Source: Ehretia macrophylla (lineage: Eukaryota; Streptophyta; Magnoliopsida; Boraginales; Ehretiaceae). From it: a stretch of 64,000 bases of DNA. The stretch lies in NCBI GenBank assembly GCA_037974665.1, contig CM075783.1:15904762-15968761 (forward strand), read 5' to 3'. Position numbers and translations under genes: made by a program. Position 1 is the stretch's first letter; the number at the start of each line of letters is the position of its first letter. The notes beneath the pieces were generated by a model that saw only the letters and a program-made list of their open reading frames with translations, was not told the DNA's origin and made no database searches. Of the stretch, positions 9,042-62,590 are shown in pieces.

Positions 9042-11429
9042 TGTCAAGCCCCAACTCGACCCCACCTATAATCAGTCAGGACGCAACGAGATTTCGGCAG
9101 TATAACGACAGTAAATAAAATACCGAGGTTCTAAACCAACCTCATTAATAACATTAAACATCCAATTCCATAACCATACAAACAACAACTCCTCAACAGC
9201 ATAACAACACACAACATAACCGTAATATACAATAATCAATCCTCGTTATCTGCCTCCGTTCCAACATAACATACAATACCTCAACCTTATCATACATTTC
9301 AAAAATAAGTTGAGACCCATCTAACAACTTAACCATAGACAAAAGAAGCTGCTAGAATAGTAACAACTAATTTATATTCTTTTCAGCATCCTATACAACA
9401 AAAACTATAAAGCATAGAAAAGGCTACTAAGCTAATATATATGATAAATAACAGCACATAATCACGGATAAGACTCTAGGACATATGACTCGTCCACGTA
9501 AGGCACATTTTCCTCCTCAGGAGGCACGTACCCGTAATCCGGCTCTGCAACACCTGTAAGCATGCAATAATAGAGAGTGAGCTTATATAAATAAACCCAG
9601 TGAGGATCCGATAGATCTCGAGCAAGGTCTACTAAACTCCTTGGAATAATCCTTTGAGTCAGTAAACACACAATAACATAAATAATACTATAATCACATA
9701 ACTATATAACCATTCAATAAAGGATACTATATTTGGTGTAGCTCCAAACGCCATCACGATCTCAACCGTTCTTCTTCTAACTCCCCATTACTCACACACC
9801 CGAGGTACCTCACTAGCCCCTCCCTCCATGACACCTCCATCATGCGAGCTGGGAGTAGCCTCTGGCAGTCATGCCGTTATCAACCCGACAGCCCAACGCT
9901 GCCCGAGAGGTGGCACACACATACCAAGACTCCATAATCATCATCAATCATCAATCAATCATCAATCAATCATCATTTATTCATCATTGATAGCATCAAT
10001 TATCATTTAAACAACAATAACTTAGTTAGATGACAAAGTAGGCCATCTAACTGGACATGCATTATATACACAATTAAACCCTAAATTACTCATCAACAAC
10101 TCACCATTCAACACTAAAACACCACCCAATCATCTAAAGGCATCGTTCAAGAAATTAAAGAATGACAACCTAAACTTCAAAAATTCATAACTTACATTCT
10201 ACTAACCCAAACATTGCCAAATCAGTTTCTATCACTCACCTATTCAACCTACTACATTAGCCCTCTTGGAAATCCACCATAACAGCTCCAAATCATGCCC
10301 GATAACCCTAAAACACTAGGATGTCTTGGCTGAATTTTTCAGACTTTTCCACGAGCAATGTAATCGAAAATTCGGCATTACAACAGCGCTAACACGTAAT
10401 TATCATGTATTTAGAAATCGACGACAATCGATTTCGATCATCACAACTCAATTAATTCAACATTAAACAATTTAATCAAAATTTAATACCCGAAAAATAA
10501 AAATTATGCTACATCCGACAGAAATTCGTAATATTACCACTAAACGATCCCTAGCATGCAAGGAGCAATAATCAAACATCAGATTACAATTCTAACGGTT
10601 CAATCTTCATTTATACGCAAAAATGCAAAAGACAAGTTTTGAGATCTAGAATTTTTCTCTCACCTTTGATGCGATAAAAGCCTAGGGATGTATGAAGTGC
10701 GTGCCCAACAAGCAGAATCCAAATCGGTGCGAAGTTTTACGGACAAAAACCAAGCTTTTCTTTGAATTTTTGCTTTGAAAACCTTGAAAACTCTTTCTCT
10801 TTTTCTCTCTTCTCCCTCTCGGCAATGTGTGTGTAATTGTGGGTGTTTTTGTGCTTTGTGAGTGTGTGTTGGTGATATAAGCTTATTTGGTCAACAATTA
10901 AATAAAGTCAATGTTAGTTTAAATTAGTATTTTTGTGTTTTCTTGACTTTAAATGCATTTTCTTGATCACCAAAGTTCAAAACATTTATTCAACACCCAA
11001 AATAGCTCAAGTAGATTATTTTTAGGTGACAAGAAGTTTTACAATCAAACAATTTCACCCGAGTCGGCTTAAAACTCGATTTTTACAAAAGTCGGTGTAA
11101 AAATCCTAATAAATTCTTAAGCCAATTTTAAAACCGTTTTCATCAAACACAGGTCTATAAAAGTCCATGGACTAGGTCTAGAAAGGTTAAAAAGACCAGT
11201 TTCAAAATTTTAGCGGACGTGTTTTGAAAATACTATTCACTGAAAATCGACGATAAAATTTATGATCCCGTTTTTGATGAAAATTTCATGAATGCACATT
11301 TAGCACGTATTAGGAGTATTGACATCAAAATTATAACTTTCTAGGTCCTATAGCACATAAACAGGTCATATGCACGCAAAATGAGGTATAGCATGTAAAA
11401 CGAGATAAGCAAAAAAGTGGGGTTTCACA
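9042..11429 (-). mobile_element. Solo LTR L1 (family L)
   Basis: In + orientation it reads TGTCAAGCCCCAACTCGACC at its start and TGGGGTTTCACA at its end. A perfect GAGGG duplication flanks it (9037-9041, 11430-11434), inside the NB 5' LTR. There is no internal region, so this is a solo LTR. Family L sense orientation here is minus: TATA-like GCTTATATC near 10873-10882, leader, splice-donor match at 10664/10663, acceptor at 9554, and a short conserved reading frame at 9462-9553. Confidence 0.9.
9462..9553 (-). CDS. Candidate last exon in LTR L1, conserved acidic peptide
   Basis: On the minus strand, after TGCTTACAG (a good 3' splice-site match), the frame reads VAEPDYGYVPP, EEENVPYVDES, YVLESYP and stops at TGA (9464-9462). 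The same frame and stop occur at the matching place in the other L LTRs. Without splicing the frame is also open upstream (to 9671). The candidate intron runs 10663 to 9554 (about 1.1 kb, GT...AG). There is no in-frame ATG in the leader of this copy, so translation of this copy is doubtful. Function unknown; no family recognised. Confidence 0.4.
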
Positions 11430-14835: not shown

Positions 14836-17496
14836 TGTGATAACCCGAACCCGGCATGCATTTAATGGCATTTAATTAAGTGTCATCTTAAATGTTAGCA
14901 TTCAATTTCGTGGTTATTTTTAATTAAACAGTCATTTCTAGCATTAACTTCATAATTCTTTAAAATATTCTAGAAATAGTTAAATTAATTATTTTTAAAT
15001 GAATATTGATTATTTTGATTGTTTTGATTATTCTAATAATCGGTTTTAATTGTCTTGCATTAAAATCACTCGGTTTTTAAATAAATGAGAAATGTAACTC
15101 CGAACCGGAGTGAAATTTAATCTATTCTACTATTCTACTTTTCAAAAATTATAGTTTCCTATTATTGCTCATCACTTTATTAGCAATCATTTATTGACCG
15201 TTCGATCGTAGTATTTCAAAAATGAGAGTTAGGAAAATATTCCTTAGACTTAGTGAAAAATGTTTTTAGCTTAATTTAGCTAGTTTTAATTGGTTTTCAT
15301 TAAAATTGCATTGTTTTAACTTGAATTAGATTAAATGGCATCAAAATAAGCTTATTTGATCAATTTTAACTTAAGCTTGATTTTACAAATGACCAAAATG
15401 CCCTTTGTCACTTTTTAAATAATAAAACAAGGCAAAAATCAAGAAAAACAAATTTCAAAATGACCATTTTGTCCTTGCCATGGCCAAAACACTCCAAGAG
15501 GAAAAAAAAAGATTTTGCTTTCAATTTTCTTCTACAATCATGCGTGGAATTGCTCGAGGGTCGTGGCTCGGGTCCTTGCGGGTCTTGGTCTTCAATCTCT
15601 ATGAGGGTTTTCACGCTTTTGTGCATTTATATTCGAATTTGAATTTTATTTCAAAATTTTAAATTTGATATATAATGTGTTATAATGCCTGTAATTGCTT
15701 GATATAGCTTCCTTTGAGTTCATAGAGCATTGTTTGATAGTTATTTAGTAATTTTTACGGTTGAAATTGCGTATTTGAAATTGGGAAAGAACAATGAATA
15801 GTGATTTTAAATAGTAAAACCCTAGAATTTTGGATTTTGATCCGAATTGCTATTGCTTGATTTGGATAGGTGCTATTAGTGATAGAAAGATAAAATGTGC
15901 AATAAAAACGGACTGGCCTTTGATAAATTTAAAATTAAACAATGAAACGAAAAGAGGCCGTTTGACCAAAAGTTGACCGTGCTCGAATTGAGTTGAGGGT
16001 TTTGCTATTGAGGGCATGGAAGCACTTTTGGCGTTGTCGTGGCGTTGATTGAGTAACCGGTTAGCATAGCTGTAGTTCAAACATAGTAGGTGGACTTTCG
16101 GGTTTTGGTTGGGAAAGTGAGGTTTAGTGACTTAGAAACGTGCCTTGTAGTGCCTAAGTGAATATAGTGAAATCGGTTTCCTAATCCCGTAGCTCGTTTG
16201 TTCGTAATTGCCTTTGGAAGTTAGAGATTGAATAGTGATATTTGTCGTTTTTGTGTTTGAACTGCTGTTACTTGTTTAATTGGTGTTATTGTTGCTATTA
16301 ATGATAGTTATGCTTGAAAAGTTAATTGAATGCTAGTATTGATTGTAAATGCTTGATATCTCGTTTATCGCCTCTAATCTGTATTATTGTGCTATCGCTC
16401 GTTTATCGCCTTGTATCGTGTCTTGCATTGCATAGTGTCAGGTGCGTGAGTGATGGGCCTCTATGGGTAGTCTTGGGCTGCCAGTGTTGGTTGCTCTAGC
16501 TCCGTGTCCTATTCCCATTCTCGCTTGGGTTGCCTCCCATGGAGATTTGGGTCGTAGAATTGATTGAATACTTCCGGGGTATTCCAAACTAAAGTTATAA
16601 GGTGGTTGCACGCTTATTGTCATCGTTGTCAACATCAAGCTCGAGATTGATGTAATGCTCGTGGAATCAAATCGAATGGTACATTGCTCGTATGAGTGAA
16701 CCATAGCCTTCAGAGTGTGGTATAGTGTTGAATGGTTGTGTTAATGCTTTTATTAATTGCTTATTGTATTGATTGTTTATATTGAATGCTTACTTGTTAG
16801 ATATATTGCTTAACTGCCTTATTTGTATTGCACGACTTTCTTTCTCTCCACCTCGATATTTGTCTCGCCCTCACTGAGTATACGTGTTGTGTATACTCAC
16901 TCCTCACCACCACATTTCAGGAAATACCATGTTAGCTGGAAAGTTCGTGCTTGAAGAGTTGCCTTGCGTGCTATGTGGCTTGAGTTGTCAAAGTTGCAAA
17001 GATGTATGTTCATGTGTTGTATGTATTTATTGTTAAAAAGAATGTAATCTAAATTTAATTGGGTAATTGAGGTAGAATGATAAGCTAGTTTATGTATTTG
17101 GTTAGTATAGTTTAACTTTAATGCATGTTTGTAATGACCAAAGAAAAAGAGTTAGAATGGTATGATAGTCTATTTTATGCAATAAGTTAGAATAGTTTAG
17201 TTGCCAAACATGAATGTACTTGTCAAAGATGAGAAGAGATATGTTAGCATTTAAACTGGAAATGTATGTTTACTTGTGTTCACTTGTTGAGAACCAAGGC
17301 TCGGATGGCCTTGAGGTGTTGGTATGGTTGGACACAGTGCTGGTCCACTTATATGCTATTACAGGTTTTACATTTTGCCTAGAAACAAGGGAGACTCCGT
17401 CCGTCTTTCCCTAAATATTCTGCCCGGGTTTAGAATTGGGTTGTGAATAGATTGATTGATAGAACTCCCGGTCTCGAGAGGGATCGGGGTGTTACA
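14836..17496 (+). repeat. NB 3' LTR, intact
   Basis: 2661 bp, beginning TGTGATAACCCGAACCC and ending GGGGTGTTACA. It carries the context CCATGGCCAAAACACTCC at 15478-15495, which opens a frame starting MAKTLQEEKKR (15480). Solo LTR L4 has a similar leader start (MAETPKS). The CCTCACTG box and hairpin are at 16869-16898 and CATTTCAG ends at 16920. The block around 16454-16600 (GGGCCTCTATGGGTAGTC onward) is shared with the F2 LTR at 58391-58530. Confidence 0.9.
16869..16920 (+). other. CCTCACTG box, hairpin and AG site in NB 3' LTR
   Basis: The same element as at 12666, with a perfect 8-bp stem: GAGTATAC (16876-16883) and GTATACTC (16891-16898). The candidate acceptor CATTTCAG ends at 16920. 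Confidence 0.6.
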
Positions 17497-22990: not shown

Positions 22991-25562
22991 TGTCACGATC
23001 CAACTCGACCCCACCTACAATCAGTCAGGACGCAACAGAATTTCGACAGTAAAATGACAGTAACACGGAACCCGGGGCTCTAAACCAACCCATTTTAACT
23101 TCATACATCCAACTCCAAAGATCAACAATAACTCCACAACTTGCAACAACATACAACACAACCATTTCCATACATTAAACAACCATTTAACAGTTCATTC
23201 ACAAGTTATACGCCTCCGTTCCAACATCAACCATAGGCCAACTATATACAAGCATAATATATATAACGCTAGCCTTGTAATCTATTCATGTTCCAAAATA
23301 AGACTGCTAAGCTAACAATATTTAAACAACTATCTTTAGATCATCTTATACAACATAAACTTCCAAGTAAATACAACCCAACTGGTTTTAGTAATCAAGA
23401 TAACAAAAAGGGAACTACAACTCAGATATCACGAATAAGACTCTGGCACATAGGACTCGTCCACATAAGGCACATTCTCAGCTTCTTGAGGCATGTACCA
23501 GTAGCCCGGTTCAGTAACACCTGCTTGCAAATAACGAATAAGAGTGAGCTTATATAAAACAAGCCTAATGAGGAATTTATAGATCTTTAACACATAATAA
23601 ACATAATCATCAATACAAGTATAATAATGACCGTAAACAAACAGTAAGGATACGATACACTTGTTGAAGAAGCTCCATACATCATTTCAATGCTCACCAA
23701 CTCCTCCAAACTCATTGACACATGCTTGAGGTACCTTAACCTAGACCCACACCCCATGGCCTCTCCGCCCATGCAAGATAGGGACTAGCCATGATAATTG
23801 TGCCCGCATCCCAGGATACCTCCTGAGGTGACACAACATTATCAAAGCTCACAACAATAAGACTCAACATAAATAAACCGAGAGATCAACAACGAAAGTG
23901 CCCGATTCCCGTACTCAATAATCATCAATATTCTGAGAGATTAGCAACGAAAATACCCGATTCCCATACCCAATATTCATCAATATATATTCCAAGATAT
24001 CAGCAATGAAAGTGCCTGATTCTCATACTCAATAATCATCATTCAATTAACAATGTAACGCTCAGGATTAACCCCGAGCACGCTACTCACGGTTGAAACA
24101 ACAATCAATAATCAATTAAACCATATTTCAACCTTCAATTAAACAACATTTAACAATTAACAATTATATATTCCCGAAACAATTAAGTTAAAAAATAAAG
24201 TAGGCCATCCAACTGAACATGCATTAAACCACACAACCAACCCTAGTCTAACCATCAACAACACAAGATTCAATCACTCAAACACCACCCGAACGACCAG
24301 AGGCATATATCAACATTTTAAAGAAAGACAACCCAAACTTCTAAAAGTCATAACTTACATTCTACTAATCTGATAACCTTCAAACATAGTTCTATCACTC
24401 ACCCACTCAATCAACAACATAAGCCCACTGGGAAACCAACCATAATTCATCCAAATCAAGCCCAACAACCCTAAAACTCTAATGCACCATGTCTGAAATT
24501 TTCGGACTTTCACACCGACATCAAAATCAAAATTTTGGCATTACAACATTACTATCACGTATTTAACAAACTTTTAGAAACTAACAGCAAGCAATTCCAA
24601 CTACCACAACAACATTTATTCAACAATTAGCCAAATTATCAACTTTAATACCCGAAAAATAAAAATACATGCTACAACAGTTCAAAACTGCTATAAACCC
24701 ATATAAACGATCCTTGGTTGCTACTGAGTACTAATCTAAAGACAGTTTAACATTTCACTGAATAAATAAACAGTTATATAAAAAGACATAAAAATAACAC
24801 TCTGAGATCTATAAATTTTCTCTCACCTTTGATGCAAACTAAGGCTAGAAATGTGTGCAATGGATGCCTAACAAGTAAAATCCAACTTTAGATGACAAGC
24901 TTTGCCCTTCAAATGAGTTTTCTCAAGAAAAATTGCTTTGAAAAATAGTTGAAAAACCTCTCAAGCTTGCCTATGGAGTTTTGGCCATCTAGGTGTTTTT
25001 TGAGTATGTTTTGTGTTGTTTTGATTGTGTGTCGATGCTATATAAGTAAAGGTCAAACAAATAAAAATGGTCAAAGTTGAAGCCTTTCTTAGTTTTTAGT
25101 ATTTTAGTTTTTTAATTTAGTTTTCTTGACTATTTTCGCTCACAACATGAAATTGACACTTAGGCTAGTTTAAGTAGTATTTTTTTAGTTGACAAGGAGT
25201 TTCACAAGCAAAAACTTTCACCCGATTCTATTTAAAACTCGATTTTCGCAAAAGAATGTGTAAAAACCCTTTTAAAATCCTAAGCCGATTTGAAATTCAT
25301 TTTAATCAAACACAGGTCTATTAATGTCCGAGGACTAGGTTTTCAAGGGTTAAAAAGTCCAGTTTCAAAATTATAACGGACGTGTTTAAAAAATACTATT
25401 CACAAAAGTCGACGATGAAATTTCTTATTCCATTTTTTATGAAAATTTCATGAATGCATGTATTAGGAATATAAATCACAAATTTAGCACATTCTAACTC
25501 ATATAACACATAAATAGGTCAAAGTACGCAAATCTAAGAAAAGACGAATCTGGGGTTTCACA
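22991..25562 (-). repeat. NC 3' LTR (L2)
   Basis: + strand ends TGTCACGATCC and GGGGTTTCACA. In sense it carries a TATA-like TTATATAG (about 25039-25047), a leader, a donor AAAG|GTGAGAG at 24827/24826, an acceptor GCAAGCAG at 23521, and the short exon 23429-23520. The leader start ATGGCCAAAACTCC is present but closes at once with TAG. Confidence 0.92.
23429..23520 (-). CDS. Candidate last exon in LTR L2
   Basis: The frame reads VTEPGYWYMPQ, EAENVPYVDES, YVPESYS then TGA. The splice acceptor context TTTGCAAGCAG|GT is intact and the donor is intact, giving a candidate 1.3-kb intron (24826 to 23521). Unspliced, the frame is open for about 80 codons but lacks an ATG. Function unknown. Confidence 0.4.
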
Positions 25563-27829: not shown

Positions 27830-30412
27830 TGTCACGACCCAACTCGACCCCACCTACAATTAGTCAGGACGTAACAAAATTTCGGCAGTATAACGACAGT
27901 AACAGGGAACCCGGGGCTCTAAACCAACCCTTTTTAACTTCATACATCCAACTCCAAAGATCAACAACAACTCCACAACTTACAACAACATACAACACAA
28001 CCATTCCCATACATTAAACAACCATTCAACAGTTCATTCACAAGTTATATGCCTTCGTTCCAACATCAACCATAGGCCAACCATATACAAGCATAATATA
28101 TATAAAGCTAGTCTTGCAATCTATTCATGTTCCAAAATAAGACTGCTAAGCTAACAACATTTAAACCACTATCTTTAGATCATCTTATACAACATAAACT
28201 TCTAAGTAAATACAACCCAATTGGTTTTAGTAATCAAGATAACAAAAAGAGAACTACAACTCAGATATCACGAATAAGACTCTGGCACATAGGACTCGTC
28301 CACATAAGGCACATTCTCAGCTTCTTGAGGCATGTACCAGTAGCCCAATTCAGTAACACCAGCTTGCAGATAACGAATGAGAGTGGGCTTATATAAAACA
28401 AGCCCAGTGAGAAATTTATAGATTTTTAACACATAATAAACATAATCATCAATACAAGTATAATAATGACCGTAAACAAACAGTAAGGATACGATACACT
28501 TGTTGAAGAAGTTTCATACATCATTTCAATGCTCACCAACTCCTCCAAACTAATTGACACATTCCTAAGGTATATTAACCTAGACCCACACCCCATGGCC
28601 TCTCCGCCTATGCAAGATAGGGAGTAGCCATGATAATTGTGCCCGCAGGCCAAGATGCCTCCCAAGGTGACACAACATTATCAAAGCTCACAACAATGAG
28701 ACTCAGCATAAATAAACTGAGAAATCAGCAACAAAAGTGTCTGATTCCTATACTCAATAAACATCAATATTCTGAGAGATCAGCAACGAAAGTGCCCGAT
28801 TCCCGTACCCAATAATTATAAATATATATTTCGAGAGATCAGCAACGAAAGTGCCCGATTCCCGTACTCAATAATCATCATTCAATTAACAATGTAACGC
28901 TCAGGATTAACCCCGAGTACGCTACTCACGGTTGAAACAACAATCAATAATCAATTAAACCATATTTCAACCTTCAATTAAACAACATTTAACAATTAAC
29001 AATTATATATTCCCAAAACAATTAAGTTAAAAAATAAAGTAGGCCATCCAACTGAACATGCATTAAACCACACAACCAACCCTAGTCTAACCATCAACAA
29101 CACAAGATTCAATCACTCAAACACCCCCCGAACGACAAGAGGCATATATCAACATTTTAAAGAAAGACAACCCAAACTTTTAAAAGTCATAACTTACATT
29201 CTACTAATCTGATAACCTTCAAACATAGTTCTATCACTCACCCACTCAATCAACAACATAAGCCCACTGGGAAACCAACCATAATTCATCCAAATCAAGC
29301 CCAACTACCCTAAAACTCTAATGCACCATGTCTGAAATTTTCGGACTTTCACACCGACATCAAAATCAAAATTTTGGCATTACAACATTACTATCACGTA
29401 TTTAACAAACTTTTAGAAACTAACAGCAAGCAATTCCAACTACCACAACAACATTTATTCAACAATTAGCCAAATTATCAACTTTAATACCCAAAAAATA
29501 AAAATACATGCTACAACAGTTCAAAACTGCTATAAACCCATATAAACGATCCTTGGTTGCTACTGAGTACTAATCTAAAGACAGTTTAACATTTCACTGA
29601 ATAAATAAACAGTTATATAAAAAGACATAAAAATAACACTCTGAGATCTATAAATTTTCTCTCACCTTTGATGCAAACTAAGGCTAGAAATGTGTGCAAT
29701 GGATGCCCAACAAGAAAAATCCAACTTTAGATGACAAGCTTTGCCCTTCAAATAAGTTTTCTCAAGAAAAATTGCTTTGAAAAATAGTTGAAAAACCTCT
29801 CAAGCTTGCCTATGGAGTTTCGGCCATCTAGGTGTTTTTTGAGTGTGTTTTGTGTTGTTTTGATTATGTGTTGATGCAATATAAGTAAAGGTCAAACAAA
29901 TAAAAATGGTCAAAGTTGAAGCCTTTCTTAGTTTTTAGTATTTTAGTCTTTTAATTTAGTTTTCTTGACTATTTTTGCTCACAACGTGCAATTGACACTT
30001 AGACTAGTTTAAGTAGTATATTTTTAGTTGACAAGGAGTTTCACAAAGCAAAAACTTTTACCCGATTCGGTTTAAAACTTGATTTTCACAAAATAAGGTG
30101 TAAAAATCCTTTTAAAATCCTAAGCCGATTTGAAATCCGTTTTAATCAAAAATAGGTCTATTAATGTCCGAGGACTAGGTTTTCAAAGGTTAAAAAGACC
30201 AGTTTCAAAATTATAGCGGACGTGTTCCAAAAATACTATTCACAAAAGTCGATGATAAAATTTCTGATTCCGTTTTTTATGAAAATTTTATGAATGCACA
30301 CATAGCATGTATTAGGAATACAAATAACAGATTTAGCACATTCTAACTCATATAACACATAATCAGGTCAAAGCATGCAAAACTAGGCAGAGGCGAAATC
30401 TGGGATTTCACA
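27830..30412 (-). repeat. NC 5' LTR (L3)
   Basis: + strand TGTCACGACCC to GGGATTTCACA. It differs from L2 by scattered substitutions and small indels, so the insertion is not recent but is younger than E, whose LTRs differ more. The splice donor is intact (GTGAGAG); the acceptor AG is changed to TG. Confidence 0.92.
28268..28359 (-). pseudogene. L3 copy of the candidate exon, acceptor lost
   Basis: VTELGYWYMPQ, EAENVPYVDES, YVPESYS then TGA, so the frame is intact. The preceding acceptor reads GCAAGCTGG instead of GCAAGCAGG. Being the partner LTR of L2, it is not an independent observation. Confidence 0.4.
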
Positions 30413-33271: not shown

Positions 33272-36114
33272 CTTACGTAGGAAGATTATGAATTTTCCTT
33301 TGTTAATGACTTGTGTAATATTCGTTATTGTAATGAATATATCGGCAATGCCATTTCGGTGAACGATCTTTATCATCTTGACATGAACAAATGTATGCAT
33401 ATTGATTCTACTTCATCTTCCACTTTAAAACAAAAACGACGAAGAGATAATCAAATCAATCTTAAACAATTATGGCACTTAAGACTTGGTCATATCAATG
33501 ATAAAAGGATTGCATCTATGGCTCAAAATGAACTTATTGGTTCATTGGGATTTGAGCCCAGCCCTACATGTCAATCATGTATCCTTGGTAATATGACTAA
33601 GTCACCTTTTGATAGACAAGGTGTAAAGGCTACTGAATTGTTAACATTGATACCTAGTGATGTTTGTGGACCATTTAAAGAAATGGCTTGCAGTGGTTAA
33701 TACTACTTCATAACTTTTACCGATGATTATTCATGGTATGGTTATGTATACTTAATAAAGCATAAGTTTGAAGCTTTTGAAAAGTTCAAAGAGTTTAAGG
33801 CAGAAGTAGAAAACCAATTAGGAAAAAGTGTTAAAACTCTGCAATCTGATCGTGGAGTGAATACTTGAGTACTAAGTTTCTTGACTATCTCAAAGGAGTT
33901 GGTATAACATCACAAACAACACCATCTGCTACACCACAATTGAATGGGGTATCTGAATGTAGGAATCGTACATTAATGAATATGGTATGATCTATGATCA
34001 ATTACACTGATCTTCCCATTTCATTGTGGGGTCATGAACTTTTGACAGCTATCTACTTGTTGAATAGGGTTCTAACTAAAGCTGTTCCTACTACTCCGTA
34101 TGAGTTATGGGTTGGTAGGAAACCAAGTCTTAATCACATTAAGATTTGGGGATGTCCTGCTTTTGTTAAGAAACTTAAGACGGATAAGTTGGAAACCAGA
34201 TCTTATAAGGGTTGGTTTGTGGGATATCCTAAGGAAACTAAAGGATATTATTTCTACTTTCCTAGTGATCAAAGAGTTGTGATCAGCCGTGATGCTATCT
34301 TTCTTGAAAAATAGTTTGTTCAAGAAGGTGGTAGCAGGAGAAAAATAAAAATAGAGGAAGGGTCCTCTGAACCACAAATAGACCTGAATCAAGATCCTGA
34401 ACCTATTTAGCAGAATCCAAAACAAGTCATCATGCAAGTACCTCGTAGATCTGGTAGAATATCCCATTCTCTTGAACTATATGGGTATCTTCTTGAGGAA
34501 GCACAAAAACTATTTGTGGTAGAGGATAACGATCATATTGATGCTCCTACTACTTATGAGGAAGCGATACGTGATATTGATTCTGAGAAATGGAAGCAGG
34601 CAATGCAAATTGAAATGAACTCTATGTACTTCAATGATGTTTGGACCTTGGTAGACCCGCTTGAAGGAATTGTACCTATAGGTTGCAAATGGGTCTTCAA
34701 GAGAAAACTTGGAATTGATGAAAAAGTTGAGACTTTTAAAGCAAGGCTAGTTACAAAAGGTTTTCATTAGAAACAAGGTGTTGACTACGACGAAACGTTT
34801 TCACCTGTAGCCATGCTTAAGTCCATTCGCATTATGCTTGCTATTGTAGCATACTATGATTAGGATATTTGGTAGATGGATGTCAAAACTGCGTTCTTGA
34901 ATGGATATCTAGATGAAGATATCTATATTGATCAACCTTTGGGTTTTGAATCCAAGGATCATAAAGTATGCAAGCTTAAAAGATCAATTTGTGGCCTTAA
35001 ACAAGCTACTCGGTCTTGGAACATCCGATTCAATAATAAGATCAAAGAGTTTGGTTTCATAAGGAATGAAGATGAACAATGTGTTTACAAGAAGGTTAGT
35101 GGGATTGCAACCACTTTTTTGATCTTGTACGTTGATCACATTCTTATTATGGGAAATGACACGGGTCATATGATGTCCACAAAAATTTGGTTAAGTAATA
35201 AATTCTCCATGAAAGATTTGGGAGAAGCCACTTATATTTTGGGGATTTGTGTCTATAGAGATAGAACAAAAATATTAATTGGCTTATCTCAGAGCATGTA
35301 CATAGAGCGGATCTTGAAGAAATTCAAGATGGAAAGTTCAAAGAAAGATCTATTGCCTATAAGGCACAGTGTACACCTTTCTAAGGAAATGTCTCCTAAA
35401 ACCGATGAGGAAAGGCAACGTATGGATAAAGTGCCTTATGCTTCCGCGATAGGCAGTCTCATGTATTTTATGCTATGTACACGGCCTGATCTTGCTTATG
35501 CAGTAAGTATTATGAGCAGATATCAGTCCGATCCAGGTGAAGGACACTGGATTGCTATAAAACATATCTTGAAGTACTTGCGAAGAACTAAGGATCTTGT
35601 CTTAATTTATGGAGACGGTGAACTCCGTGTAGATGGATACGCTGATTCAGATTTTCAATCTGATAAAGATGATAAAAAGTCTACATCTAGGTTTGTCTTT
35701 GTATGTAATGGAGGTGCAGTCTGTTGGAAAAGTTCAAAACAGTCGGTAACTGCTGATTCTACAACTGAAGCTGAATACATCGTTGCATGTGATACTGCAA
35801 AAGAAGCAATTTGGATAAAGAAGTTCTTGATAGAGCTCGAAGTGGTTCCATCCATTGAATTACTGATACCGTTGTATTGCGATAACAATGGGGCTATTGC
35901 ACAAGCCAATGAACCAAGATCTTACCAAAAATCCAAACATATTGAAATGATATTTCATATTATTCGAGAGATTATGGCTCGAAAAGATATTAGTTTGTAG
36001 AAAGTTCCTACATTGGATAATGTAGCTGACCCACTCACCAAGCCTATGAGTCAACCACAGTTAGATCATCATCTTGAGAAGATGGGTATGCGATACCATA
36101 GTATGATACACTAA
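33272..36114 (+). pseudogene. pol: Copia pol: integrase, reverse transcriptase, RNase H, many stops
   Basis: The zinc-binding region WHLRLGHIN ... CQSCILGN is at 33473-33590. Integrase follows with FTDDYSW, LQSDRGV and the Glu-containing block; stops lie at 33698-33700 and 33866-33868. Reverse transcriptase contains WKQAMQIEM, CKWVFKRK, KARLVTKGF, MDVKTAFLNG and the catalytic box LYVDHILI, where YVDD is expected; the second Asp is His. RNase H has DGYADSDF, STTEAEYIV and YCDNNGAI and ends with NVADPLTKPM. Several TAG/TAA stops replace codons that relatives write with CAG, TGG or TAT (for example at 34768 and 34861). Inactive. Confidence 0.88.
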
Positions 36115-41342: not shown

Positions 41343-41736
41343 TGTAACGCCCCAACTTGACCCCACCTATAATCAGTCAGGACGCAATGGAATTTCAGTA
41401 TTATAACGACAGTAATACGGACGTCAAGACTCTAAACCAACCCTTTAGAACTTCATACAACCAACTCCACAAATCATCGATCAACTCCACAACCAAGTTA
41501 TCAACATACAACTCAACCATATTATACATTAAACATTCTTTCAGTAATTCATCCATAGTTATACGCCTCTGTTCCAACATCGTACATTGGCTATAACATA
41601 TACTTGCAAAATAGATTATAAACTAATCTTGCAACCTAATTATGTTCAAAAGAAAGGCTACTAAACTAGCAATATACATAAGTCTTATAATTGAGTAAGT
41701 TATACAATATAACATATTACAACAACTAAGACAAAC

Positions 41737-41828
41737 TCATGGCAACGACTCCGGCACATAAGACTTGTCCACATAAAGCACATTCTCAGCTTCTTAAGGC
41801 ACGTACTCGAAATCCTGTTCAGTATCAC
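41737..41828 (-). pseudogene. L4 copy of the candidate last exon, with one stop
   Basis: DTEQDFEYVP, stop TAA, EAENVLYVDKS, YVPESLP then TGA. The TAA stands where L2 and L7 have CAA/CAG (Gln), a C to T change. The acceptor ATGCATACAG|GT is good. Confidence 0.4.
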
Positions 41829-42860
41829 CTGTATGCATATAACGATTGAGGATGAGCTTATATAAAACAAGTCCAGTGAGGATTCGATAGATCTCTTAAC
41901 AGTATTTACTATACTCCTTAGAAATCATCTTTTGAGCAGTAAACACATAATAAACATCAATAATAATATAAGCACAACAATAATAATAATAACCAATCAA
42001 TAAGGATACTCTAGTTGGTGTAGCTCCAAACGCCATCACGATCTCAACCATCTTCTTATAACTCCCCATTACTCACGCGCCTGAGGTACCTCACTAGCCC
42101 CTCCCTCCATGGCACCTCCGCCCATGCGAGCTGGGGGTAGCCTATGATAGTCATGCCATTATCAACCTGACAGCCCAATGCTGCCTGAGAGGTGGCACAT
42201 ACATACCAAGACTCATGATAATAATAATAATCATTCATATCATAGAAGGACAACAAAGTAGGTTGCCTATCTCTCGGCTTCATCAATAATCAATCAATTA
42301 ACATTATGTCAATAACATAACATCAATTAATAACTCAACAACTAAGTTAGATGACAAAGTAGGTCATCCAACTTAACATCCATTTAACCACTCAACCAAA
42401 CCCGTATCTAACCAACAACAACCCATGATTCAACCACTCAAACAACTAAAGACATTATTTCAACATTTAAAGAAAGACAACTCAAACTTCTAAAAGTCAT
42501 AACTTATATTCTACTAATCCGATAACCTCCAAACCAGTTTCTATCACTCACCCACTCAAGAAACAACAGAAACCCCTCGGAAACCAGCCATAATCCATCT
42601 AAAACAAGCCCAACAATCCTAAAACGTCAATGCACCATGGCTGAAGTTTTCGGACTTTCACCACGACATCACAATCAAAATTTCGGCATTACAACATTAC
42701 TACCATGTATTTAACAAACTTTTAGAAGCTAACAGCAATCAATTCCAACCATCGTAACAATCTAACATTTTTTGCTCAATTTAACATTTCAACGGCTAAA
42801 AATTCAATTATATGAATTGACACAAAAATAGCATTTTGAGATCTAAAATTTTTCTCTCAG

Positions 42861-43011
42861 CTTTGGTATTATTTGATGCAAGAAAGGTGTGCAATGAGTG
42901 CCCAACAAGCAAAAACAAATTTTGGTTCAAGATTATTGGCTTAATATTGCAAGTTCTAAGAGAAAAATTGAGCAAAAATAAAGCAAAAATGGACTTGGGA
43001 GTTTCGGCCAT
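42861..43011 (-). CDS. L4 candidate first exon, MAET start
   Basis: The frame starts MAETPKSIFAL and runs through LLVGHSLHTFLAS to the position where other L LTRs have the splice donor. It is in the phase that would join the last exon in the other copies. The block (L)LVGH.L.TFLA recurs in L1, L2, L5, L6 and L7. An upstream in-frame Met lies at 43074. The donor GT is mutated to CT here. Function unknown. Confidence 0.35.
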
Positions 43012-43617
43012 GTGTGTGTGTGTTTGTGGTGTTTGAGCTTTTGTTTTATGAGTTATTTTAGTTATATTAGGCATATATAAGCAAAGTCAACAAAAATAAT
43101 AAAAGGTCAAAGGTGAACAATTAGTATTTTATTTGTCTTTAATTATTTTCTAGTCTTTTAATTCTATTTCTTGACTATTTTGCTCACCAACATGCAATTA
43201 ACTCCTAGACTAGTTTAAGTAGTATATTTTTAGTTGACAAGGAGTTTCACATGCAAAAACTTTTGCCCAACTCGGTTAAAAACTTGATTTTTTCAAAAGA
43301 AGGTGTAAAAACCCTTTTAAAGTCCTAAGCTGATTTAAAATCCGTTTTGATCAAACACATGTCTATTAATATCCGAGAGCTAGGTTTTCAAGGGTTAAAA
43401 AGACCATTTTCAAAATTATAGCGAACGTGTTTCAAAAATACTATTTATAAAAACCGACGATAAAATTTATGATGTCAATTTTGATGAAAATTTCATGAAT
43501 GCACACATAGCATGTAATATGAATATAAATGACAGAATTAGCGCATTCTAACTCATATAACACATAAACATGTCAAATCACGCAAATCTAGGCAAAGATG
43601 AAATTTGGGGTCTCACA

Positions 43618-44000: not shown

Positions 44001-44390
44001 TGTAACGCCCTAACTCGACCCCTAATACGATCAGTCAGGATACAGCGGAATTTCGGTAGTATAACGACAGTAATATGGACATCATGGCTCTAAACCAACC
44101 CTTTAGATCATCATACAATCAACTCCACAAATCACCAATCAACTCCACAATTAAGTTAACAACATACAACGCAACCATATTATACATTAACATTCTTTCA
44201 ACAAGTCATCCATAGTTGTACGCTTCCGTTCCAACATAATACATAGGCTATAATATACATTGCAAAATATATTTAAAACCAATCTAACAACCTAATCATA
44301 ATCAAAAGAAAGACTACTAAATTCTCATACATAAGTCTTTATATTAAGGTAGGTTATACAATACATCATGTTACAACAACTAAGATAATC

Positions 44391-44482
44391 TCATGGCAAT
44401 GACTCCTGCGCATAGGACTCATCCACGTAAGGCACATTTTCTTCTTCAAGAGGCACGTACCCGTAGTCAGGCTCAGTAACAC
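44391..44482 (-). CDS. Candidate last exon in LTR L5
   Basis: VTEPDYGYVPL, EEENVPYVDES, YAQESLP then TGA. Compared with L1, L2 and L7, most differences are in third codon positions. The acceptor GCAAGCAAG|TG is off by one; an AG three bases upstream (TGCAAG|CAAGTG) would keep the frame. Confidence 0.4.
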
Positions 44483-45598
44483 TTGCTTGCAGACAACGAA
44501 TGAGAGTGAGCTTATATAAAACAAGCCCAGTGAGGAATTTATAGATCTTTAACACGTAATCACATAATCATCTATATAACATAACAATAATCATAACCAA
44601 TCAATAAGGATACTCTACTTGGTGTAGCTCCAAATGCCATCACGATTTCAACCATTTTCCTTATAACTCCTCATTACTCACGCACCCGAGGTACCTCACT
44701 AGCCCTTCCCTCCATAGCACTACCGCCCATGCGAGCTAAGGGTAGCCTTTGATAGTCATGTCGTTATCAACCCGATAGCCCAACGCTGCCCAAGAGGTGG
44801 TACACACGTATCAAGACTCATCATAATTACAATATTCATTCATATCTCCAGAGGACAACATAGCAGGTTGCCTATCTCCCGGCTTATGAATAATCAATCA
44901 ATTAATATCATTTCAACAACATAACAACAACTAATCAAATAAATAACAACCAACTAAGTTAAATGACAAAGTAGGCCACCCAACTTAACATGCATTAAAC
45001 CACACAACCAAACTCTAGTCTAACCATCAACAATTCACGATTCAATCACTCAAACACCACCCAAACAACCAAAGGCATATTTCAACATTTTAAAGAAAGA
45101 TAACCCAAACTTCTAAAAGTCATAACTTGCATTCTACTAATCCGATAACCTCTAAACCAGTTTCTATCACTCACCCACTTGATCAACAATATAAGCCCCC
45201 TCGGAAACCAACCATAATCCATCCAAATCAAGCTCAACAACCCTAAAATCCTAATGCATCATGGCTGAAATTTACAAACTTTCACACCGACATCACAATC
45301 AAAATTTCGGCATTACAACATTACTACCATGTATTTAACAAACTTTTAGAAACTAATAGCAAGCAATTCCAACCACCACAACTCCATTAATTCATCAACA
45401 AGCCAACAACTCAATTTTAATACCCGAAAAATAGAAATTCATGCTACAATAGTTCAAAACTTATACAAACACATATAATTGATCCTTAGCATCCACTGAG
45501 AACTAATATAACCTCAATTCAACATTCTAATGGTTCAAAATTCAATTATATGCAAAGACACAAAAATAGCATTTTAAGATCTAAAACTTTTCTCTTAC

Positions 45599-45737
45599 CT
45601 TTGATGAGATATGATGCAAGAAATATGTACAATGGATGCCCAACAAGTGATTTCAAGCTTTGGTTGACAAGATTTGGCTTTGAATTGCAACTTTTAATAA
45701 AAATTTGCCTTGAAAACTTGAAGAAAAAATCCTTCAT
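45599..45737 (-). CDS. Candidate first exon in LTR L5
   Basis: 46 codons starting MKDFFFKFSRQIF, through SLVGHPLYIFLAS, ending at a strong donor AAAG|GTAAGAG. The intron phase (one base before the junction) fits the last exon. It is mostly hydrophobic and basic with no recognised domain. Its counterpart in L6 is nearly identical. Translation and splicing are inferred only. Confidence 0.35.
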
Positions 45738-46364
45738 TTTCTCCTATGGTGCTCTTAGCCTTGTGTGTGTTGTGTGAGTGTGTTTTATGTTGTTTCATTG
45801 TATGTTGGTGATATATAAGCAAAGGTCAAATAAAATAAAAGAAAGTCAAAGTTGAGCAAAGTTAATTTTTTAGTATTTTCTAGTCTTTTAATCATTTCTT
45901 AGACAATTTTTGCTCAAAACAATTATGCAACACTTAGACTATTTTAAGGAGCTTATTTTTAGGTGACAAGAAGTTTAACATTCAAACATTTTCACCCGAC
46001 TCGGTTTAAAACTCGATTTTTGCAAAAGAAAGTGTAAAAACCCTTTTAAATTCCTAAGCCGATTTGAAATCCATTTTAGTCAAACACATGTCTATTAATA
46101 TCCGAGGACTAGGTTTTCAATGGCTAAAAAGAACAGTTTCAAAATTATAGCGGACGTGTTTCAAAAATACTATTCATAAAAGTCGACGACAAAATTTCTG
46201 ATGCCGTTTTTTATAAAAATTTCATGAATGCACACATAGCATGTATTAGGAATATAAATAACAAAATTAGCACATTCTAACTCATATAACACATAAAAAG
46301 TTCAAATCACACAAATAGGCAAAGATACGCAAATCGAGGTAAAGACAAAAACTGGAGTTTCACA

Positions 46365-46382
46365 TTCTCCCCCCCTTAAAGA
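46365..46382 (-). other. E polypurine tract
   Basis: In sense, TTTCTTTAAGGGGGGGAGAA directly before TGTGAAACTCC. Confidence 0.88.
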
Positions 46383-46457
46383 AATTTTGTCCACAAAATT
46401 CTTACTTGTTGTATGAAAAAGATCTGGGTACTGTTGCTTCATCTGATCTCTCATCTC

Positions 46458-50157: not shown

Positions 50158-50667
50158 TGTCACGCCCCGACCCAACCCCCAAGCTAAAGGTTAAGTCCGG
50201 ACCCGACACACGGACAGAGTTTCCTCTGTACCGTGGACATTCTAAAAACCTGTAAACACTTAAACAAGGTCCCAACAATACAATACAAGCTTTTCTCAAT
50301 TAAACAACAAAGCTATAAGGCCATCCGAGCCTTATAGTACACAATATCTCCAAAACACACAAGCATGCGAGAACTTGTTGTCAGCATAGTTTTATAATCC
50401 TGACATTCTAGGAAATCAATAAAACAACTTAAAGGATAAAGCATTCTACATTAACCATCCACTCCCAAGCATGCAAGGAAATAAGGCAAGAATAAAAGTT
50501 ATTACAGTTCATAGACTTTCAAAGCTACAACCCAACCAACTAATCTTCAACTTATACAACAAGCATATACATAGCCCTTGGGCTACAAAATAGTACATAA
50601 AGTAATCAGATGAGTCTTCCACATAGCAGCAAAATCATTAACCACCTCAAGTTATCAGACACAGCAA

Positions 50668-50741
50668 CTAAGGTAAAGGCTCGATCTGAAATTCTTCTTC
50701 CTCAACTAAATCAACAAGCTGGGGATCACCCTCAGCGTCTC
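50668..50741 (-). CDS. Candidate last exon in LTR H, acidic peptide
   Basis: After TATCTGTTTCAG the frame reads DAEGDPQLVDL, VEEEEFQIEPLP and stops at TAG. It begins two bases into the exon, the same phase as in family L. The candidate intron is 52080 to 50742 (about 1.34 kb). The frame upstream of the donor is open for about 17 codons to a TAG, with no Met in this copy. Function unknown. Confidence 0.35.
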
Positions 50742-50762
50742 CTGAAACAGATATCGAGGTAT

Positions 50763-50787
50763 GAGCAACCACTGTTGCCCAGTGAGG
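50763..50787 (-). other. CCTCACTG box and hairpin in LTR H
   Basis: In sense, CCTCACTG (50787-50780), stem GGGCAAC, loop AGTG, stem GTTGCTC (one G-U pair), then CATACC. The acceptor TTTCAG follows within 25 nt. Confidence 0.6.
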
Positions 50788-52656
50788 GATATAGTCCCGG
50801 GGCGTGCAATACAACATATAATACAATCATGCAACAATAACACTTAGACAATTAAAGAAACAACGATAACTTAAATAACCACACATTTAAAAGGATACGT
50901 TTCAACAATCCCCTATACACCAATCTTCACTGGTCTTCAATCACGATCCACGAACCACGAACCACGAGCACGATCACGATAAGCCGGCATAACCCCAATC
51001 ACTCCAGTGGGTGTACTCCGGATGTACCCCAAATCCTACGACCCAACATCCCCTGGCAATCTCCGGACCAGGCGAATGAGGGAATAGGGCACGGAGTTTG
51101 AATATCCACCGGCAAGCCCTCTGCCGCCCAGCCGATATTCAACACATCCGCCCCTGACACTATGGTTGCGCAACCACTATGCAATGCACTTAACGATGGC
51201 AAGTTAATAGCAATAATATAAGCATTAACACATATGAGGATCAACAAAGTAGGTTGACCTCGTTGCAATTAGGATAGAAGCAAATATAGAAGCTAATAAG
51301 CAGTTTACAAATGAACATATACCAAATAAGCATAGAATCATACCAAAAGCTCCAAATCAATTTAAAATCACATATAAACACTCAAGAAGTCCTGACATGG
51401 GTTTAGACGTGTGAGACAACTTAAATTGCACCTAAACCCCTTTGTTTTTCGAACTATTTCTCTTCCAAACCAAAGTTAATGATTTCATTTTCAAAGGAAA
51501 CTCTCCCAACCTTCTAACTAACCCCCGAGGTACCCTCTCAACCCTCTAACTCATTCAAATGCCCGCATTTACCCCGAAAGCCCCAAATTCCCTCTTATGG
51601 CTTTAAACTACACATACGTTGTCCGGGCTTCAAACAAGGGATATCAAGGCATCTATAGCACCTAGGTAGCCTAAGGATACTAGAATTGAAGCCCGAATCC
51701 ACCCGGATTCGCATTAACCCCGAAAGCCCCAACTTAAAGTCGGCTATTTTCCATTTTTAGGCAATTTAAGGCAATGCAAGTGCACGGGGCTATTAGGCTA
51801 TCTTCACTAACACCTAAGGCATCTATTAGAAGCATTAAATCAAGCTAATTCGAGCAATTACACAAAACCCTAGAAAAAACGTCACTATTCACCCTAAAAA
51901 TTAAACTAACGATTCTAACTGTTTAAAAAGCGAAACAACGGCTCAAATGTGTTCTCTAGCATTCATATAGATGGTATATTAGCATAGATAACAATTACAA
52001 TGACATTTAATCATGTTTTCAACAATTCAAGAAATGAGCAACTATTTAAAAATGCAAAAACAAGCCATGAAATCCCTCACCAATACGCGTAGGAGCACCT
52101 AGGGACCTTGCAAACACCCTACACTAGTTGCTCAAGGCTTAGAGAGGCTTGGATTGGAGGCTTGGTGAGCAAAATCTCTCTCTTTTCTTCTCTTGCTGCT
52201 GTCGGGTTTGGGGCTCCTGTTTTCAGCTTTTATTATTATTATTTTTTTTTTGCCTTTTTGTGAGCTTAGGTGATATATAGAAGGGTTAAGTTATGGTGGG
52301 GTCATTTGGGTGCTTAAATGATCTATTATAATGCGCGTTGAAAGCTTAGAAGCGAGCCTAAGGGGTGACACATTGGCTAACTAATTAAATCTATAAAGTT
52401 ATTACGTAACACTATTCACTTGACTTCTAAAATTATTTTCTAAACGAGCCCTCCTAACGCCTTTAGCTCAAATGCACATTTTTCCCACTACTTTTACAAT
52501 TAATATGATTTAATAAAAATGCTAATTAATTAATAGAAGACAGTTTAGAAATGGAATGAATAGTAACCCAAGAAGGCAGTCAATAATGCACAGAAGGAAA
52601 TGCGTAAACAAAGATGCAACAGTAATTAAATGCATGGCTAAATCTCGGGCGTCACA

Positions 52657-53853: not shown

Positions 53854-54248
53854 CTTAATGTAATGCCCCAACTCGACCCCTCCTACGATCAGTTAGGACG
53901 CAACAGAATTTCGGCAGTATAACGACAATAATATGGACATCAGGGCTCTAAACCAAACCTTTAGATCATCATACAATAAACTCCAAAAATCACCAATCAA
54001 CTCCACAATTAACTTAACAACATACATCGCAACCATATTATACATTAACATTCTTTCAACAACTCATCCATAGTTGTACGCCTCCGTTCCAACATAATAC
54101 AAAGGCTATAATGTACGTTGCAAAATAGATTTAAAACCAATCTAGCAACCTAATCGTAATCAAAAGAAAGACTACTAAATTAACATACATAAGTCTTTAT
54201 ATTAAGGTAGGTTATACAATACATCATGTTACAACAACTAAGATAATC

Positions 54249-54339
54249 TCATGGCAATGACTCCTGCACATAGGACTTATCCACGTAAGGCACATTTCCT
54301 CTTCAAGACGCACATACCCGTAGTCAGGCTCAGTAACAC
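54249..54339 (-). pseudogene. L6 copy of the candidate last exon, 1-bp deletion
   Basis: The frame starts VTEPDYGYVRLEE, then one A is missing relative to L5 (CTTGAAGAGGAAATG), shifting the frame before the usual end. Confidence 0.4.
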
Positions 54340-55454: not shown

Positions 55455-55590
55455 CTTTGATGAGATATGATGCAATAAATATGTACAATGGATGCCCAAC
55501 AAGTGAATTCAAGCTTTGGTTGACAAGATTTGGCTTTGAATTGCAACTTTTAATGAAAATTTGCCTTGAAAACATGAAGAAAAAATCCAT
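55455..55590 (-). CDS. Candidate first exon in LTR L6
   Basis: Starts MDFFFMFSRQIF and continues through SLVGHPLYIFIAS to the donor AAAG|GTAAGAG. It matches L5 with a few substitutions. Same caveats as L5. Confidence 0.33.
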
Positions 55591-57039: not shown

Positions 57040-59334
57040 TGTAATACCCGAGCCCAGAACATGAAATTTTTCTGTTTCTTTTTTTGAAAGTTATATTTTT
57101 TCTATATTCCTTGATATTTAAATGTTATTCGTTTATCGTCGCAAAGTACATTGCATATCGAGAGTGGTAGCTAGGAAATGATTTCTAGTCCTCAGCAAAT
57201 AGTAAAAATAATATTTATAGTATTTAGTATTTTAGTTTAGTGTTTTAGTTGTTATTTTTATTAGAATTGTGGTTTTAGCTTTGTTTTAACTAAAATACCT
57301 ACAAAATAAGTTAGCATTGACCAATACTAAAGGCCTTTGACCTTTGACCTTTAGTTGTTGTCATCTTTTAGTCTTTTAATAGGTAAAACAAAGCAAATAA
57401 GCTAGCCAAAACCGAGAGCTCAAGGAGAAAGAAAAAAAAACCTTTCAACTTCAATTCATCAAAACTTCGCGCGGGGTTGCTTAGGATCATTCTCGGGCCT
57501 TTCAACGTTACTTTCCTAGAGTCTAGTAGTGGCTAAGGTGAGGAATGCATCATTATTTGCGCATTTGAATATATTGTGTCTAAACTTTAATTTTTAGAAT
57601 TATGCATAGAATGTTATTCTAATCTTTTTGTTGCTTGAAGAATGTTCCTTGATGATTGTAGAACATGAATTTATAGGTTTTTAGTATTTTTTACTATTGA
57701 ATTTGGCTATTGCAATTTAAGCTGTTAATGGAATAGTAAAATATGAATAGTAAAACTATCGTTTTTCAATCTTATTCTGAATTGTGATCTTTTGATTTAG
57801 AAAGTTGCTAGATATGCTAAAATGCTTAAATGTATGGTTTATTTGGGTTGTGTAATGGAAAAATGGAGGAAAATGCCTTGGTACATATTGGGGTCGTTTT
57901 GGTCGAGTTTAGCATTTCCTCGTTTTGCATGATGGCATTGTCTCGAGAGGCCATGGAAGCACTTTTGGTGTGGTTATGGCATTGGTTGGATGTTTGGTTA
58001 GGGTAGCTGTAGTTCAACGAGTAAAGGGGAAAACAGGGGCTTTGCAGGAGTTCTAGGTTAAAGAAAGGTTTTGTGGCTTCTAGTCGTGCCTTATGGTGTC
58101 CTATGATGAGTGGTGAAGTTGGTTTCCAAAACTCGTGGCTCGTTTAGAAGTAGTAGCATTTTGAAAGTGGGGCTGTTGTGTGATTTTGTTGGTTTTTATA
58201 ATGCTATGCTTTTAAAATGCTTATTGTTTCTTATTATTCTTGTTATAGTTGTTTATGATTGAAATGTGTACCAATTGTTGCTATTGCGTGAGAGGATAAC
58301 CTACTTTGTTATTATCCCATGCGTGGATCTATCGCTCGATTGTTGTATTGTATATTGTATTGCATTTATAGAGTCAGGGGCGGGTATGATGGGCCTCTCT
58401 GGGTAGCCTCGGGTTGCCAGGGTTGGTTGCTCTAGCTCCATGTCCTATTCCCTTTCTTGCTTGGGTTGCCGCCTAGGGATATTTGGATCGTAGTATTGAT
58501 TGGATACTTCTGGGGTATTCCAAACTGAAGTTATAAGGTGGTTGGGCCGGTGCGTCGTCATCAGATTCATGAATTGAAGTTGTTCATGGAAAGTAAATTG
58601 TATCTTATAATTGAGCGGTTATAACTATAGTACTTGTAATGCTTGTCTTGATCTATTTGATTGGTTTGATCTAGTTGTTCTTAAATGTTTAATTGATTGA
58701 CCTACTTGGCTATTTGTATTGCACTCTTCTCTCACTTCCATCCTATGAGACCATTTAACCCTCACTGAGCAATAGTTTTTGCTCATCCCTTTCTATACTA
58801 TATTTTACAAGAGTAGTTGAGGCTGTTCCTATTGAGGTGGTTTAGGAAAAGGAGGAGCAAGTGGAGGTGTTTCCCTAATTGCTCTTTCTTTGCTTAGGTG
58901 GTGGTTGGTTGCCAGACTTTTGTGGCGGGCCATGCTTGTTGCACATGTTGCTTGGTTGTCACTTTATTTTGAGGCTTGTAGCCTTGTATGTAGTGTCTAT
59001 TTTGAGGCCTCCAAGGTCTTGTAATGTATAAGTTGAAAGTTTGTAAAACTGTAAGTTGTACTCGAATAACTAGTAAAGAACTGCATGCTAATGGTTTAAC
59101 TACTTAGTGACATAAGTACCTGTGTAGTATGCATGACATTTTGGACTTTATCAAGTTGGTTAATGAAAGAATGTATGTTTTCAAGGGAAGTTGTCTTGTT
59201 TCAAATGAATATTGTAGTTTCCACATATATTCTATTGAATGTAGGGTTTTTAGATCGCCCACTATACAGGGGAGACTCCGTCCGTGTGTCGGGTCCGGAT
59301 TTGGCCTTTTGCGGGGTCGGGTTGGGCCGGGACA
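57040..59334 (+). repeat. F2 3' LTR
   Basis: Starts TGTAATACCCGAGCCC and ends about GGTTGGGCCGGGACA. No second copy is in the window, so the right end is uncertain by a few bases. A donor match GGCTAAG|GTGAGG is near 57537; a CCTCACTG box with hairpin is at 58760-58784; a possible acceptor TTTTACAAG is near 58810, followed by a short acidic frame (VEAVPIEVV, TAG, EKEEQVEVFP, TAA). The block 58390-58530 is shared with NB LTRs. Confidence 0.78.
58760..58784 (+). other. CCTCACTG box and hairpin in F2 LTR
   Basis: CCTCACTG (58760-58767), stem GAGCAA (58767-58772), partner TTGCTC (58779-58784). Same place as in NB with different stem bases. Confidence 0.6.
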
Positions 59335-62491: not shown

Positions 62492-62507
62492 ACTCTCATT
62501 GTTACAG

Positions 62508-62590
62508 AACCAGATTACGGGTACGTGCCTCAGGAAGCTGAGAATGTGCTTTATGTGGACGGGTCTTATGTGCCTGAGTCTTATCCATGA
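62508..62590 (+). CDS. Candidate last exon in LTR L7
   Basis: Relative to L2, 18 bp including the usual acceptor are missing, but ATTGTTACAG|AA (AG at 62506-62507) offers an acceptor in the same phase. The frame reads EPDYGYVPQ, EAENVLYVDGS, YVPESYP then TGA (62588-62590). Unspliced, the frame is open from 62342 with a Met. Function unknown. Confidence 0.4.

Follow-up and report, generated by a model that had tools for sequence, protein, structure and literature searches.

Evidence for an intron and a selected last exon inside the long terminal repeats of Ty3-type elements in Ehretia macrophylla, with Pol as a candidate upstream partner

The DNA analysed here is a 64,000-nt stretch of contig CM075783.1 of Ehretia macrophylla, hereafter the window, and positions are those of the window unless stated otherwise. 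It holds seven long terminal repeats (LTRs) of one family, which we call L (L1 to L7; Table 1). The first-pass annotation had described the same splice donor, acceptor and short frame ending at a common TGA in all seven, and the alignment bore this layout out, with introns of 1032-1306 nt. Following the alignment, the splice-site losses reported for L3 (acceptor CTG) and L4 (donor GT to CT) and the acceptor defect of L5 (CAA in place of CAG) were also found, and to these must be added L7, absent from the earlier list, whose acceptor is gone through an 18-column deletion. The spacing of L2 and L3 and of L5 and L6 resembles that of the two LTRs of single elements, and therefore the window represents about five independent lineages, not seven. 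The L5/L6 element contains RVT_1 and RT_RNaseH_2 domains, and an integrase-type SH3_Tf2-1 domain (74 bits) was found in copy L061; having reverse transcriptase, RNase H and integrase, the L elements are Ty3-type. The sequence TGGTATCAGAGC behind L6 is what we take to be a tRNA-Met primer site. A match to the Chromo domain (PF00385), which in chromoviruses follows the integrase, scored 19.3 bits, below its cut-off of 25.1, and PF00385 is present in some of the closest database relatives. The long LTR and the end of Pol may point to the Tekay clade. Here we present evidence that RNA of these elements is spliced inside the LTR and that the last exon has been kept by selection on a protein, for which Pol is the best candidate N-terminal partner.

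The L family is large. In the 1.58 Gb of genome searched, a 23-mer of the last exon occurs 5,927 times with up to three mismatches (control 0), and an exact search for TTTATATAAGCTCACTC, a 17-base non-coding anchor that lies about 21 bases ahead of the exon, gave 10,342 matches (control 1). We aligned 117 copies, a small fraction of those in the genome, most of them taken from the initial 20 Mb of a single contig. After 10 overlapping copies had been dropped 107 remained, and 26 of these, which had been found via the coding sequence, were kept apart, leaving a main set of 81 copies that includes the seven of the window. A tree built from the intron sequence brings together copies whose exons are unlike, and pairs that are close in the intron differ more in the exon than in the intron. 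This conflict between intron and last-exon histories (L030 and L037 are among the copies concerned) is a sign of recombination between LTR subfamilies, and because of it pairwise tests were chosen.

Of 87 copies, 73 had an alignable donor, which in 51 reads AAG/GTGAGA, the slash marking the splice point. At the acceptor, 70 of 81 copies have CAG and three more a different AG. The joined sequence expected from splicing, CATCAAAG/GTGTTACTGAGCC, was found at nine places in the genome with zero to two mismatches. Allowing three mismatches raised this to 17, and the eight additional places are about as many as the five matches of the control. Five of the nine, in two clusters, were read; all five are intron-less copies joined exactly at the predicted sites, and in the two compared by BLAST LTR sequence flanks the junction on both sides. 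On contig C1 the intron-less copies form a pair 2.6 kb apart. The same was seen, by pattern match only, in F2, a second LTR family with a member inserted within the L5/L6 element: the start of its exon has 5,585 matches genome-wide, and its intron-less junction was matched at three places (control 0). Two of these lie 6.2 kb apart on one strand, whereas intron-bearing pairs lie about 7.5 kb apart, a difference close to the length of the 1,339-nt intron, which would fit its loss from both LTRs of a single element. These results are strong evidence that RNA of the L and F2 families undergoes splicing within the LTR and that the spliced product can be copied back into the genome. We consider the intron of the L LTR to be real; it lies between a leader exon close to the promoter and an acceptor with a conserved hairpin ahead of it.

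Elsewhere, at G000:C2:7314629-7326673, five intron-less L junction matches stand in a row at intervals of about 3.0 kb, and two of the five were read. The arrangement resembles a tandem LTR-internal array from a lineage that has lost the intron.

The past selection on a protein that had been proposed for the last exon is also supported. The frame is intact in 65 of the 81 copies; in 15 the stop is early or lost, and one copy has a frameshift. The recurring blocks are DYGYVP, NVPYVDESY and ES(L/Y/C)P. One subfamily carries a 9-nt insertion that adds three codons and keeps the frame. The +1 frame is also mostly open (69 of 81 copies), and therefore openness alone is no proof; the proof is the codon pattern. 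With rising distance between copies, the pairwise ratio of nonsynonymous to synonymous substitution rates (dN/dS) was 0.72, 0.28, 0.23 and 0.25 in the true frame, 0.61, 1.06, 1.28 and 1.05 in the +1 frame, and 0.70, 0.76, 0.90 and 0.75 in the +2 frame. Distant pairs lie at 0.23-0.28 in the true frame, against 0.75-1.28 in the other frames. With all 107 copies the contrast was smaller (true frame 0.69, 0.37, 0.27 and 0.26; +1 frame 0.61, 0.64, 0.94 and 1.05; +2 frame 1.31, 0.86, 0.77 and 0.60). Column diversity at the three codon positions of the 81 copies was 0.122, 0.171 and 0.318 (p=5e-5, within-codon shuffling), and the third-position excess persisted when each cluster of related copies was reduced to one representative (p = 5e-5, 5e-5 and 1e-4 with 21, 13 and 8 copies). 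A hand count of variable codon positions in L1, L2, L5 and L7, given earlier as 4, 8 and 16 for first, second and third positions, was reproduced exactly; over all seven window copies it becomes 7, 14 and 17, much weaker because decayed copies are included.

The third-position excess is confined to the frame and limits of the exon. Behind the stop the pattern is flat (p 0.26-0.82), and the exon's own frame upstream of the acceptor has no coding pattern (p=0.97), therefore the coding signal starts at the acceptor and ends at the stop. One of the six flank tests, in another upstream frame, gave p=0.017. The near-neutral close pairs fit dead copies and the low values of distant pairs fit selection in active lineages. 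Purifying selection has maintained the last exon, of about 30 codons and in phase 1, in those lineages that went on to multiply. A homologue search with the spliced LTR product returned 870 candidates, none at E 0.01, a search with the Pol tail plus the exon gave no candidate, and one pattern of the exon searched against viral contigs gave no exact match.

As to the sequence to which the last exon might be joined, the best candidate is Pol. At the end of Pol a putative donor reads CAA/GTAAG (CAAGTAAG) in 12 of 13 pol-bearing copies and CAA/GTACG (CAAGTACG) in one, and its phase, 1, is that of the last exon. In all 13 copies without pol that were checked this motif is absent from the place; the 13 pol-bearing and 13 pol-less copies are related, and do not count as 26 independent events. 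Between the putative donor and the LTR 12 of the 13 pol-bearing copies are free of stops (L062 has one), and in L067 and L009 a stop lands on the first bases of the LTR. As far as the donor, Pol has a third-position excess (p<0.0001 over 119 codons and p=0.0057 over the final 29), which is absent from the 12 codons that follow, in a small sample (p=0.43). In 12 copies the uninterrupted Pol frame runs on for 14-43 codons beyond the donor, and in one for 6; the conserved peptide is found about 1.9 kb further along, behind the acceptor. In F2, the two Pol ends that were read likewise have a phase-1 GTAAG with no stop up to the LTR.

From these observations a division of labour between RNAs can be proposed. 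At the 5' LTR, removal of the intron would shorten the leader of the full-length RNA. At the 3' LTR, the same acceptor would be taken by the Pol-end donor (A/GTAAG, phase 1), and this splice would remove the polypurine tract and most of the LTR, so that Pol would gain a short C-terminal tail, acidic and rich in tyrosine, with its end within the LTR. Such spliced RNAs would be translatable but, because the polypurine tract is gone, poor genomes, and the unspliced RNAs would be the genomes. Plant nonsense-mediated decay recognises a stop codon upstream of an exon junction, and this arrangement would be avoided if the stop of Pol lay in the last exon.

Several results weigh against a Pol tail. 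In F2, joining the end of Pol to the acceptor used in the intron-less copies would create a stop, T/GA, which an AG 3 nt further on would avoid, and in F5, another family with the same layout, a TAG stands directly before the GTAAG in the one copy seen. The Pol donor would need to bypass the LTR's own donor AAG/GTGAGA, most pol-bearing copies have further stops or frameshifts upstream, and no genomic retrocopy of the Pol/exon junction was found in the one subfamily searched. Copies without pol have nearly as low a dN/dS in the exon as those with it when far apart (0.31 versus 0.27), with mild relaxation at intermediate distance (0.47 versus 0.23), in sets of 13 copies each that both include copies found via the coding sequence. 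Among the best 120 of 6,068 public relatives of Pol none carries the exon blocks; measured from the YPxLF block, 57 of these tails end at a distance of up to 5 residues, 10 at 6-15 and 32 later, and in 21 the block as written is lacking. Taking all this together, we give the whole account, of a real LTR intron, a selected last exon and splicing of Pol to its tail, slightly less than an even chance of being right.

The account competes with other sources for the beginning of the protein. Translation is demanded by the selection seen, and since Pol is a candidate only, the exon might instead be joined to a different upstream exon, in the gag region, in the middle of the LTR or in a second product of the element. 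We saw no conserved donor with a suitable frame in the parts examined, which did not include gag and the 5' internal region, and consider such a partner unlikely.

Slightly less likely is a small protein encoded by two exons that both lie in the LTR, starting in exon 1 and decayed only recently in most copies. The splice it needs is real and the phase fits, and in-frame methionine codons open to the donor do exist (among others in L4, L015 and L020), in 8 of 74 copies as compared to 0 and 3 in the other two frames. The first-pass annotation had drawn on such frames in reading the LTR as a two-exon gene. The transcript of this reading looks real; the protein confined to the LTR is unsupported, as the open ATG is not a general feature (2 of 12 pol-bearing copies), large subfamilies share stops in the exon 1 frame, the in-frame tail of exon 1 has no coding pattern (p=0.13, 53 copies), and in F2 no ATG occurs from the TATA-like site to the donor of exon 1. 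Exon 1 was for these reasons rejected as a coding start, and that of L5 is probably a non-coding leader.

About as doubtful, and marginally more so, is an unspliced micro-open reading frame of some 34-37 residues (M-H-T/A-G...), beginning at an ATG 10 nt before the last exon and translated from an RNA that starts from TATATAAG. This ATG is present in 70 of 81 copies, with TATATAAG about 26 nt before it, inside the spliced-out intron. At the usual distance from that TATA, transcription would begin on or behind the ATG. L2, L3, L5, L6 and L7 of the window have no such ATG, nor has F2, and no coding pattern is seen in the frame ahead of the acceptor. The TATA-like core is part of a hairpin stem, and F2, F4 and F5 replace it with bases that keep the stem, so that its likeness to a TATA box looks incidental; the micro-frame was set aside as a first choice. 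An unspliced frame entering from further upstream was also rejected, as most of the 117 copies have a stop within 19 codons before the end of the anchor. Finally, that the pattern reflects RNA or DNA structure or the sampling of related copies is very improbable: the copies are related, the conserved hairpin adjoins the exon and one of six flank tests, in a non-exon frame, gave p=0.017, but the excess is found in the single frame of the exon with a flat downstream flank, the insertion is in frame, and the signal persists among cluster representatives.

The hairpin was tested on eight hand-chosen sequences (7 distinct rows) of four LTR families, L, F2, F4 and F5, with L3, L6, L7 and a degenerate fifth place at 32366 left out. 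Pairing holds in 95.9% of cells, three of the seven pairs show double-sided changes, and the covariation score was reached by none of 500 shuffles; for two of the five measures, double-change pairs and further pair types, 54 of 500 shuffles did as well. Perhaps several abundant families of plant Ty3 elements have a spliceosomal LTR intron with a covarying hairpin ahead of the acceptor, and in L the acceptor of the 3' LTR provides the terminal exon of Pol, so that one LTR segment would serve as non-coding leader near the 5' end of the RNA and as coding sequence near the 3' end, and splicing would sort genome from message. We regard this broader proposal as possible, though rather short of an even chance.

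Other features of the window are listed with those above in Table 1. F2 is flanked by GGGG on both sides, and no partner LTR was noticed there. Positions 8273-9041 plus 11430-13053, and 14836-17238 (plus strand), form an apparent pair of F4-type LTRs, the first with L1 inserted. Acidic short frames follow the acceptors of F2 and F5 (in F5 from 58812 onwards, with an inner stop); these end in proline and stop (PLP, VFP) like the L exon (LP, YP), which may be chance. An inverted repeat AATTTCG...CGAAATT lies just before the purine tract, at 46381-46411 and in L059-L071. In most copies without pol it reads AATTGCG...CGCAATT, and its arms seem to co-change between lineages. A Ty1/copia-type reverse transcriptase fragment (RVT_2) was seen at 34876-36000 (plus strand). 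A scan of the window against Rfam gave no match at gathering scores.

Table 1. Features of the L LTRs and of the related LTR families in the window
Feature	Position	Strand	Remarks
L1 LTR	9042-11429	-	
L1 last exon	9462..9553	-	intact, CAG acceptor
F4 LTR hairpin and acceptor TTTCAG	16870..16920	+	second copy at 12667-12717
L2 LTR	22991-25533	-	bounds as aligned
L2 last exon	23429..23520	-	intact, CAG acceptor
L3 LTR	27830-30392	-	bounds as aligned
L3 last exon	28268..28359	-	acceptor mutated
L4 LTR	41343-43617	-	
L4 last exon	41737..41828	-	in-frame stop; donor also lost
L5 LTR	44001-46364	-	3' LTR of L5/L6 element, TGTGAAAC...GTTACA; purine tract directly before TGTGAAAC
L5 last exon	44391..44482	-	phase-1 coding, TGA end
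L5 intron	44483..45598	-	CAAAG/GTAAGAG ... GCAA/GTG (usual acceptor CAG)
L5 hairpin	44507..44529	-	TGGGCTT...AAGCTCA, some 25 nt ahead of acceptor; covariation across LTR families
L5 exon 1	45599..45762	-	from ATGGCC-start column of other copies (AAG here) to donor
L5 TATA-like box	45810..45817	-	upstream of exon 1
Putative Pol-end splice donor, L5/L6 element	46401..46406	-	A/GTAAG, phase 1, in frame with last exon
F2 LTR	50158..52656	-	second family, inserted within L5/L6 element
F2 short frame	50741-50668	-	
F2 acceptor	ending 50742	-	TTTCAG
F2 hairpin	from 50786 downwards	-	
F2 donor	52080	-	
L6 LTR	53859-56215	-	5' LTR of L5/L6 element; primer-binding-like TGGTATCAGAGC after LTR
L6 last exon	54249..54339	-	1-nt deletion, frameshift
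F5 LTR	57040..59334	+	3' LTR of another Ty3-like element, same layout; right end approximate
F5 donor	57538	+	
F5 hairpin	from 58761	+	
F5 acceptor region	to 58811	+	
L7 LTR	60515-63031	+	
L7 last exon	62500..62590	+	acceptor deleted

Our literature search, in which most subscription papers were outside coverage, turned up neither the string EPDYGYVP nor, among the matches listed, any mention of a terminal exon or an intron within a plant LTR. In a review of additional open reading frames in plant LTR elements (PMC7264820), phrases on reading frames within the LTR were not matched. According to the available part of a 2025 review, plant LTR elements are generally intron-less, with Ogre and EVADE as notable exceptions (PMC12786077).

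LTRs are usually annotated as regulatory only. If a spliced intron and a selected exon are present in thousands of copies, this would change LTR annotation and the way in which the end of Pol is drawn, and ordinary RNA data could test how L-type elements split their RNA between translation and replication.

Protein-coding sequence inside an LTR is known from an animal retrovirus, mouse mammary tumour virus (MMTV), whose Sag is a much longer protein with its own start codon. In having coding sequence inside an LTR the L family resembles it. BARE, considered below, is a Ty1/copia element. The CRM group A chromoviruses are, like L, Ty3-type elements; their coding sequence reaches the 3' LTR, and the LTR part carries the CR motif (PMC3059260, in the passages available). 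Coding sequence also reaches into the 3' LTR in some sugar-beet chromoviruses, as described in the accessible part of PMC3605345. In CRM the extension is contiguous, and those passages name no intron, whereas the L peptide lies behind an acceptor; a contiguous conserved end of Pol was not found in L, where the stops vary and the codons after the donor show no excess. Genomic copies of spliced RNA reveal splicing here as they do for SpIREs, the spliced integrated copies of the L1 non-LTR element (PMC5860796, accessible part), although the intron loss seen here is within LTRs. Ogre is a partly spliced plant Ty3 retrotransposon whose intron controls translation (PMC6317226, PMC12786077), and in the passages available this intron lies between GAG-PROT and RT, while that of L is inside the LTR. 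In the Ty1/copia element EVADE (PMC12786077) and in BARE (PMC3735527), splicing or separate RNA pools part translation from replication, as we propose for L; in the available passages their splicing concerns a subgenomic RNA, and in L it would concern a terminal exon in the LTR.
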